A stretch of DNA of 44,959 nucleotides from Thermodiscus sp. (GTDB lineage Archaea; Thermoproteota; Thermoprotei_A; Sulfolobales; Acidilobaceae): contig WAOR01000108.1 of the NCBI GenBank assembly GCA_015521175.1, forward strand, positions 1 to 44,959. The letters run 5' to 3'. This document shows, piece after piece, positions 4,906-37,836 of the stretch. Under the pieces are notes generated by a model, which searched no databases, was not told the DNA's origin, and worked only from the letters and a program-made list of their open reading frames with translations. The position numbers and the translations under genes are program-made. The first letter of the stretch is position 1; every line of letters starts with the position of its first letter.

Positions 4906-4961
4906 AAGTTTGGACCCTCTTGATGGAATCGTATAGGATGGTTTTTCTATGTGCTTTCGGC

Positions 4962-5018
4962 GGGGTCGAGCCGCAGAGAATTCTTCACTGTTCAGCTAGG
5001 TGTTGGCTCTTCATCCCC
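4962..5018 (-). ncRNA. Box C/D sRNA candidate (double guide, 16S rRNA targets)
   Basis: Read on the minus strand: a G-run, box C ATGAAGA (5014-5008), 12-nt guide (5007-4996), box D' CTGA (4995-4992), 3-nt spacer, box C' GTGAAGA (4988-4982), 12-nt guide (4981-4970), box D TCGA (4969-4966), then CCCC pairing with the leading Gs. This is the textbook C-12-D'-3-C'-12-D spacing of archaeal 2'-O-methylation guides. The guide complements, readable on the plus strand, are CTAGGTGTTGGC and GCCGCAGAGAAT; crenarchaeal 16S rRNA, as I recall it, has CUAGGUGUUGGG and, some 35 nt later, GCCGCAGGGAAG. A TATA-like CTAAAAATAT lies about 40 nt upstream. The D box deviates from CUGA but keeps the GA needed for the K-turn. 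Confidence 0.8.
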
Positions 5019-5050
5019 CCACGGTCTTGCCCAGCGCTCTGGAAGGATTG

Positions 5051-12391: not shown

Positions 12392-12688
12392 ATGACGGGT
12401 AATGCACTCTTTCCTGATTGGCTGCAATCCCTCCTCCTCCTACTCTTCCTGGGCCTAGCAATAATCCTAGCCTTCCAACAGGCAAACGAGTTAAAAAAAC
12501 TACAAAAATCATCAAATAAGAAAGTCTACACGGTAATAGTCTGCGGAGACAAGGAGCACACCAGGCAGTTCCGCGAGGGTGACTATGTGGGAGCTAAAGT
12601 ATCCTGTGATGGTGAAGGAGAGGGCCGGATAGTGAAAATATACGCGATTGTTCCAGAAGAGCAGAGTAAAAAGCCGATGAAGACCTAG
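12392..12688 (+). CDS. Small single-span membrane protein next to the DUF1512 gene
   Basis: 98 residues: one hydrophobic helix (LQSLLLLLFLGLAIILAF, residues 11-28), then a charged linker and a small beta-rich domain (KVYTVIVCGDKEHTRQFREGDYVG) with two cysteines. Topology puts the domain on the same side as the C-terminal part of the DUF1512 protein, and the two genes are seven bases apart, so they may form one membrane complex. No family is recognised. The last codons overlap the 5' part of a box C/D sRNA candidate, whose box C spans the penultimate codons. Confidence 0.7.
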   Translation: MTGNALFPDWLQSLLLLLFLGLAIILAFQQANELKKLQKSSNKKVYTVIVCGDKEHTRQFREGDYVGAKVSCDGEGEGRIVKIYAIVPEEQSKKPMKT

Positions 12689-12741
12689 CTAGCCTTGAGC
12701 CCCCGTGGGGGCTGTGATGAGCACCGGGTTAGCCGAGGCTT
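12671..12741 (+). ncRNA. Box C/D sRNA candidate with D'-C' stem-loop
   Basis: Parsed as: terminal stem AAGCC (12671-12675), one extra base, box C ATGAAGA (12677-12683), 11-nt guide (12684-12694), D' TTGA (12695-12698), perfect hairpin GCCCCC/GGGGGC (12699-12712), one extra base, C' GTGATGA (12714-12720), 12-nt guide (12721-12732), D CCGA (12733-12736), terminal stem GGCTT (12737-12741). Both K-turns have the same geometry: stem, extra base, box C, and box D abutting the other strand. Guide complements are GGCTAGCTAGG and CTAACCCGGTGC; I do not recognise their targets. It overlaps the last 18 bases of the preceding gene, so it may be processed from that mRNA. Confidence 0.65.
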
Positions 12742-22309: not shown

Positions 22310-22351
22310 GCCACGTTAATTTCCCCTGCAATGCTTCGAGTATGTTAACGA

Positions 22352-22414
22352 GGGGATGAAGAGCTCGGCGTAACTGAGAATACTTGGTGAAGAGGGTCTT
22401 GAGTGCGGACCCCC
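22352..22414 (+). ncRNA. Box C/D sRNA candidate
   Basis: Parsed as GGGG (22352-22355), box C ATGAAGA (22356-22362), 11-nt guide (22363-22373), D' CTGA (22374-22377), 9-nt spacer, C' GTGAAGA (22387-22393), 12-nt guide (22394-22405), D-like CGGA (22406-22409) and CCCCC pairing back to the leading Gs. Box C, D' and C' are the same as in the 4962-5018 element; D keeps only the GA. Guide complements are TTACGCCGAGC and CACTCAAGACCC; targets not recognised. It lies about 60 bases upstream of a second C/D candidate in the same gap. Confidence 0.6.
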
Positions 22415-22474
22415 TACCATTCTAGATACCCAATACTGTGGTCTTTACAATACTCTCGCGGTACTAGGTCTAAT

Positions 22475-22547
22475 GGGGATGAAGAAGTACACGGGCCCGA
22501 GCCCCCGTGTGCTCGAGGGCTGTGAGGAGACCTGTCTCAGCCGACCC
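22475..22547 (+). ncRNA. Box C/D sRNA candidate with D'-C' stem-loop, 23S target
   Basis: Parsed as GGG (22475-22477), one extra base, box C ATGAAGA (22479-22485), 11-nt guide (22486-22496), D' CCGA (22497-22500), stem-loop GCCC...GGGC (22501-22520), one extra base, C' GTGAGGA (22522-22528), 12-nt guide (22529-22540), D CCGA (22541-22544), CCC closing the stem. The second guide GACCTGTCTCAG is complementary to UGAGACAGGUC, a stretch I recall in archaeal 23S rRNA (GUGAGACAGGUCGG) shortly before the sarcin-ricin loop; 11 of 12 positions pair. The first guide's target is not recognised. A CTTTACAATA about 25 bases upstream could be its TATA box. Confidence 0.65.
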
Positions 22548-22556
22548 GCTCGTTGA

Positions 22557-32596: not shown

Positions 32597-32638
32597 GCCT
32601 AAACCCTATTTCCACTCTCCAGAGAATCACTTAGTGGG

Positions 32639-32760
32639 GGGTCCCCCAGCCCTCGAGGAGGGGTGTGAGGAGGAGAAAGGGGTAGAACAGAGCCCCTCTG
32701 AGGGCTATGAGCGGAGCTCACCCCCACTAACCCCCTTAACGAGGGCTTTGCGGGGGACCC
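32639..32760 (+). ncRNA. GC-rich structured element, degenerate box C/D-like
   Basis: The outer GGGTCCCCC (32639-32647) can pair with GGGGGACCC (32752-32760). Inside: GGGG (32660-32663), extra base, box C-like GTGAGGA (32665-32671), 16-nt segment, D'-like CAGA, stem-loop GCCC...GGGC (32692-32705), extra base, ATGAGCG, 13-nt segment, CTAA and CCCCC. The order and the stem-loop match the better copies at 12671 and 22475, but the boxes are worn and the first spacing too long, so it may be a pseudo-copy or another RNA. AGTGGGGG/CCCCCACT offers a competing fold. Lies in a 280-base gap. Confidence 0.35.
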
Positions 32761-32790
32761 TCAACTCCTAGCCATAATTGTCCTTACTCT

Positions 32791-37756: not shown

Positions 37757-37836
37757 GGGGCCCGTGAGGATACGGCCGTGACCCCAGCCCTCTCACTGGG
37801 AGGGCTATGCGGAGCCGTGTTTCTACCCGAGGCCCC
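37757..37836 (+). ncRNA. GC-rich structured element, box C/D-like with D'-C' stem-loop
   Basis: Parsed as GGGGCC (37757-37762), extra base, box C GTGAGGA (37764-37770), 12-nt segment, CCCA, stem-loop GCCCTC/GAGGGC (37787-37805), extra base, ATGCGGA (37807-37813), 13-nt segment (37814-37826), D CCGA (37827-37830), GGCCCC (37831-37836). The terminal C/D K-turn is excellent; the inner C'/D' boxes lack one GA each. The first segment holds the palindrome ACGGCCGT and can also pair with GCCGTG in the second, so a hairpin RNA is an alternative. Between two minus-strand genes. Confidence 0.45.

Follow-up and report, generated by a model that had tools for sequence, protein, structure and literature searches.

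The window, the whole 44,959-nucleotide stretch analysed here, is contig C108 of a source genome that spans 1.27 Mb and is 83% complete. A protein encoded next to the elements has relatives in metagenome-derived genomes that bear the labels Acidilobaceae, Desulfurococcales, Aeropyrum and Thermodiscus. It carries the following features.

4961-5020, minus strand: ordinary-type C/D sRNA with a 3-nt D'-C' spacer; its two guides pair with 16S rRNA at sites that lie close together
12671-12741, plus strand: element 1, a box C/D sRNA with a D'-C' hairpin and the terminal stem AAGCC/GGCTT; 65.2 bits with the covariance model, as a member of its training set; syntenic ortholog L042
12677-12683: box C of element 1, ATGAAGA
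12684-12694: first guide of element 1 (11 nt)
12695-12698: D' of element 1, TTGA
12699-12712, plus strand: D'-C' hairpin of element 1, GCCCCCGTGGGGGC; the one extra base after it is T12713
12714-12720: C' of element 1, GTGATGA
12721-12732: second guide of element 1 (12 nt)
12733-12736: box D of element 1, CCGA
22350-22414, plus strand: ordinary-type C/D sRNA with a 9-nt D'-C' spacer; 33.9 bits with the hairpin-less model R2
22473-22549, plus strand: element 2, a box C/D sRNA with a D'-C' hairpin; 61.5 bits, as a member of the training set; seven hairpin-bearing orthologs
22501-22520, plus strand: D'-C' hairpin of element 2, GCCC(C)CG...CG(A)GGGC
32659-32735, plus strand: element 3, a K-turn-like GAGCCC/GGGCTATGA motif within a longer hairpin; rejected as a C/D sRNA
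37758-37835, plus strand: element 4, a divergent member of the box C/D sRNAs, its D'-C' hairpin 8 bp long; 30.7 bits, outside the training set of model R1
37787-37805, plus strand: D'-C' hairpin of element 4, GCCCTCTCACTGGGAGGGC; folding z -3.0

The sequence-only reading had assigned one shared plan to four elements, starting at 12671, 22475, 32660 and 37757. That plan holds base for base in elements 1 and 2, which run in the order terminal stem, extra base, box C, 11-nt guide, D', hairpin, T, C', 12-nt guide, box D and terminal stem. It also holds in element 4, with decayed inner boxes, and fails in element 3. The extra base and the first two bases of C' form the 3-nt bulge of a K-turn, so the hairpin sits exactly at the place of stem I. 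The archaeal C'/D' motif is usually described as a K-loop, and the hairpin type lacks the short spacer of that form.

Element 1 overlaps a gene end: the stop codon TAG (12686-12688) of the ORF at 12392-12688 falls inside it. The ortholog L042 is in synteny, has the same terminal stem and guides, overlaps the end of the same upstream gene and likewise contains the stop codon. Passages of PMC7994747 describe sRNA genes that overlap gene ends. Within the guide set of element 1 (CACCGGGTTA), the inner stem is GCCCCC/GGGGGC here and differs in sequence in the orthologs, being GTC/GGC in L042, GTCT/GGAC in L149 and CCC/GGG in L182 and L186. Element 1 pairs over 11 bp (one G-U) with tRNA-Asn, at about position 39 of the sequence in G016, a single-contig relative of 1,669,696 bases. 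We regard tRNA-Asn as a lead, one target candidate among several, with tRNA-Tyr and a 23S site scoring alike. The best Rfam match of element 1 is weak (sR34, RF01273; 27.1 bits, E 0.45) and below the gathering score. For elements 1 and 2, single-strand folding does not favor the C/D structure, the alternative being guide-guide pairing. In element 1 the two guides can pair with one another (GCTAGCC/GGTTAGC), and this pairing dominates its free-RNA fold, less so in L042. A disfavored free C/D fold would be expected if the RNA folds on L7Ae, yet it lends no support.

Element 2 belongs to a guide set (ACCTGTCTCA) of eight hairpin members. Across 8 orthologs, pairing in the inner helix reaches 96.8%, and two of the four pairs show both-sided changes; the outer stem is off by one column in most rows of this alignment (A7), so the inner helix alone was used. 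The D guide pairs over 11 bp with 23S rRNA TGAGACAGGTC, and the predicted N+5 2'-O-methyl site of the family is the second G of UGAG in 23S UGAGACAGGUC. Element 2 and the ordinary-type C/D sRNA at 22350-22414, which the sequence-only reading did not contain, form a tandem pair on the same strand, 58 nt apart, with the K-loop type upstream and the hairpin type downstream. Relatives in the guide family of the upstream sRNA bear a D'-C' hairpin.

Element 4 has the inner boxes CCCA (D') and ATGCGGA (C'), with one sheared pair lost. Both of its guides are common to the sRNA L151 of a relative and both pair with 23S rRNA, at two sites. Judged on these features, we take element 4 to be a real member with decayed inner boxes. 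Element 3 was rejected as a C/D sRNA. CTAA would have to serve as its D box, one of its guides would exceed the usual length, and the covariance model gives 19.6 bits (E 0.23 in a search of its own genome). A longer hairpin dominates the sequence, and the element was found in one sister species only. This long GC-rich hairpin (GGGGGTCCCCCAGCCCTCG/CGAGGGCTTTGCGGGGGACCC) spans 32636-32775 and encloses the K-turn-like motif. The region is 82% identical in the sister species (L236), and its core pattern was not found in the other genomes searched. Against Rfam, element 3 gave chance matches only.

Among these heat-loving archaea, the hairpin type extends well beyond the window. We built a covariance model (R1) from 14 sequences, elements 1 and 2 among them. 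It matched in 43 of 48 genomes of the family (E up to 0.1) and in 65 of 197 genomes of the order (E up to 1e-4), the latter in eight families (f1, f3, f4 and f6-f10). Across the phylum, only 21 of 300 genomes had matches at the latter threshold. One genus of the same family (g5) gave no R1 match, and base composition may therefore contribute. In this genome, two models together found 34 candidates; both are tuned to this architecture, and the counts that follow are no full census. Ten candidates have a D'-C' spacer of at most 10 nt, 17 have a register-matched stem of at least 3 bp, and seven have a long spacer without such a stem. Finders of sRNAs that assume a short D'-C' spacer would miss at least half of this genome's candidates.

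This genome has 5 copies of the pattern GAGCCC-N3-20-GGGCTRTGA against 0 of its reversal, and 40 genomes have about 50 against about 5, part of this excess being coding sequence. Of the 33 motif matches retrieved, 11 are flanked by fitting C and D boxes and a terminal stem, against 0.9 expected when flanks are swapped between matches. Generic K-turns with any stem number 81, against about 60 after shuffling. This enrichment is not clear, so the motif by itself is no evidence. A strict consensus C/D box scan of the near-complete relative G016 found few sRNAs, because the boxes vary at positions 5-6 with compensation. No Rfam family reached its gathering score for the hairpin type in the window or the related loci.

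Across 81 distinct sequences from the R1 matches, pairing in the D'-C' helix reaches 95.8%, and four of the five pairs show both-sided changes; since R1 was trained on sequences chosen for GCCC/GGGC, these values are partly a result of selection. The terminal helix of the same sequences is 86.1% paired and has both-sided changes in all four pairs. The covariation score of the whole structure is 0.500, compared with 0.160 for shuffled and at most 0.181 for slid versions. The sequence-only reading had looked to further copies and to covariation across relatives as its checks, and both were found. Its description of the hairpin as GCCC...GGGC was too narrow, because GGCC, CCC/GGG, ACACC and GTC stems also occur.

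A less biased measurement came from a second model (R2), trained on stem-deleted R1 matches. With the hairpin removed, it is blind to the stem. Among 26 long-spacer sRNAs with good boxes matched by R2, three of them starting examples, 13 have a stem of at least 3 bp exactly one base before C'. At 0, 2, 3 and 4 bases before C', the numbers are 2, 3, 3 and 1; in 500 shuffles of the spacers the average is 2.0 and the maximum 7. The stem is thus enriched at the one-base register alone and the helix covaries, which are the features of a full K-turn at C'/D'. The claim that the D'-C' spacer forms a genuine helix is borne out by both results.

These measurements bear directly on a rival view, in which the elements are K-loop C/D sRNAs of the ordinary kind, no selection acts on the helix, and the long GC-rich spacers pair by chance or because of the composition of the genome. 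Such an explanation could draw on the genus without matches, on the roughly ten clear short-spacer sRNAs of the same genome, and on at least one guide set (GGGTCTTGAGTG) that is K-loop here and has hairpins elsewhere. It is largely refuted by the register test, and it also runs against the compensatory changes between orthologs (GCCC/GGGC, GGCC/GGCC, CCC/GGG and GTC/GGC). We therefore consider it very unlikely.

The UGA/GA of the outer C/D boxes is kept in 79 of the 81 sequences. The inner C'/D' boxes are intact in 70, and the other 11, element 4 among these, have one sheared pair lost or changed. In nearly all of these 11, the loss or reversal affects the pair at the greater distance from the bulge. 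According to PMC8413462, archaeal L7Ae can do without this pair as long as stem I and the first pair are intact, and the pattern fits a helix that lets the boxes decay. The same inner-box change occurs in the K-loop sRNA L222. A comparison of box decay between K-loop and hairpin sRNAs is biased, since K-loop sRNAs are detected only with good boxes, and it carries no firm claim. Box C positions 5-6 covary with box D positions 1-2 as G-C, C-G and also U-U (alignment A2). The D variants CCGA and GCGA are paired with C-box changes at positions 5-6, as in L003 (ATGAGCG with GCGA). Because of this covariation, scans that use only the consensus miss many members.

The guides are 11-12 nt long, within the 10-13 nt of guides complementary to rRNA or tRNA with a target at N+5. 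Against the rRNA of relatives at score 10, the D guides match in 41 of 81 cases and their reverse-complement controls in 4 of 81. The D' guides are weakly above control, with 20 against 13 at score 10 and 13 against 4 at score 11 (of 81). All of these counts take orthologs separately and so overstate independence. The search for tRNA targets covered the elements of the window. Grouping by D guide gives ortholog sets that span several genera, in which the stem is kept while its sequence changes. Some other guide sets, such as L212 and L223, are K-loop in this genome as well as in G016; the L223 sRNA, with its short spacer, reaches 36 bits with Rfam sR7 (RF01310), below the gathering score. The hairpin trait is mostly inherited with the sRNA, with occasional change.

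This inheritance weighs against a mobile guide-RNA scaffold that multiplies by duplication and guide replacement, the view taken in the sequence-only reading. Genomes do hold many members with a common box-hairpin-box middle and unrelated guides. This genome also has two near-identical C/D sRNAs with a 10-bp D'-C' stem, L225 on contig C10 and L226 on C118, which differ in their loops alone. Both lie near contig ends and are possibly strain variants or assembly duplicates, and they are the only members that look duplicated. Most members can be sorted by their D guide into ortholog groups, each shared by several genera; element 1 has a syntenic counterpart in L042, and the whole of element 1 as a blast query matches nothing in its own genome but itself. 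A spreading scaffold is accordingly highly improbable. A reading as pseudouridine guides of the H/ACA type, or as K-turns that bind L7Ae on their own, such as leader or terminator elements, is scarcely credible: K-turns are also present in H/ACA sRNAs (PMC3608112) and element 3 has a K-turn-like motif within a long hairpin and no proper C/D boxes, but the members at large have the C/D features, with intact outer boxes, a covarying terminal stem, the guide spacing, D guides that match rRNA at C/D geometry and the flank-swap excess.

We conclude with high confidence that the hairpin sRNAs are archaeal box C/D guides of 2'-O-methylation whose inner C'/D' motif is a full K-turn closed by a stem, not a K-loop. 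Their predicted targets are rRNA and, probably, tRNA. In the mechanism that we propose, an inner kink-turn closed by a Watson-Crick helix (stem I) would replace the open-looped K-loop. L7Ae would bind both K-turns, and Nop5 and fibrillarin would assemble on each. Methylation would fall on the target nucleotide opposite guide base five, counted upstream from D or D'. At high temperature, the helix would most likely hold the inner L7Ae site in place and stabilize it, so that weaker boxes at C' and D' would be tolerated.

A further-reaching interpretation is that a large subset of the guides in Acidilobaceae and several related families forms a class of C/D RNP distinct in structure, with two stem-closed K-turns. 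The helix would replace the boxes as the anchor of L7Ae, C'/D' would decay, and the assembly (mono- or di-RNP), stability or activity would differ from those of the K-loop guides in the same cell. We put this forward tentatively, as possible rather than probable. The internal loop has been linked to di-RNP assembly, and the question of mono- or di-particles was argued from loop-bearing and loopless artificial RNAs (PMC3608112). Hairpin and K-loop sRNAs in one genome, and same-guide orthologs of both kinds, offer matched pairs for the role of the inner loop.

The sequence-only reading knew of no described family with this feature, but precedents exist. PMC8413462, citing Nolivos et al. (2005), states that the archaeal C'/D' motif is an internal k-turn or k-loop depending on the helix that flanks the kink, and an engineered example exists (PMC7089733). 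In the passages found, two archaeal C/D sRNA surveys (PMC4644070, PMC7994747) either present the K-loop or leave the spacer unmentioned. No catalogue of a natural, covarying, clade-wide hairpin class was found in the literature searched. An internal K-turn in archaeal guides was therefore already known as a possibility, and the clade-wide natural class supported by covariation appears to be new.

Compared with known systems, the hairpin sRNAs share with the K-loop sRNAs of the Pyrococcus sR26 type the order C-guide-D'-C'-guide-D, the terminal stem K-turn, guides near 12 nt and the N+5 geometry. The difference is the D'-C' spacer, which is a short open loop in the sR26 type and a loop-capped helix of about 3-10 bp in the hairpin sRNAs. 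The Rfam families sR34 and sR7 are likewise C/D sRNA families, but both remain below the gathering score. Eukaryotic MeU2-C28 (PMC6770171) and a few yeast snoRNAs with an intact stem I (PMC8413462) also have terminal and internal K-turns, both with stem I. In eukaryotic C/D guides, however, Snu13 needs stem I, whereas archaeal L7Ae does not, and the hairpin sRNAs are archaeal, where the K-loop is usual. A further likeness is the engineered st-sR26 (Graziadei et al., 2020; PMC7089733), in which the inner K-loop was swapped for a helix-closed K-turn. Keeping the RNP assembled over days at 55 °C required this more stable K-turn. While st-sR26 is one artificial RNA, the hairpin sRNAs are natural and occur in many genera, so that the natural hairpin is a widespread counterpart of the stabilizing change engineered by structural biologists.
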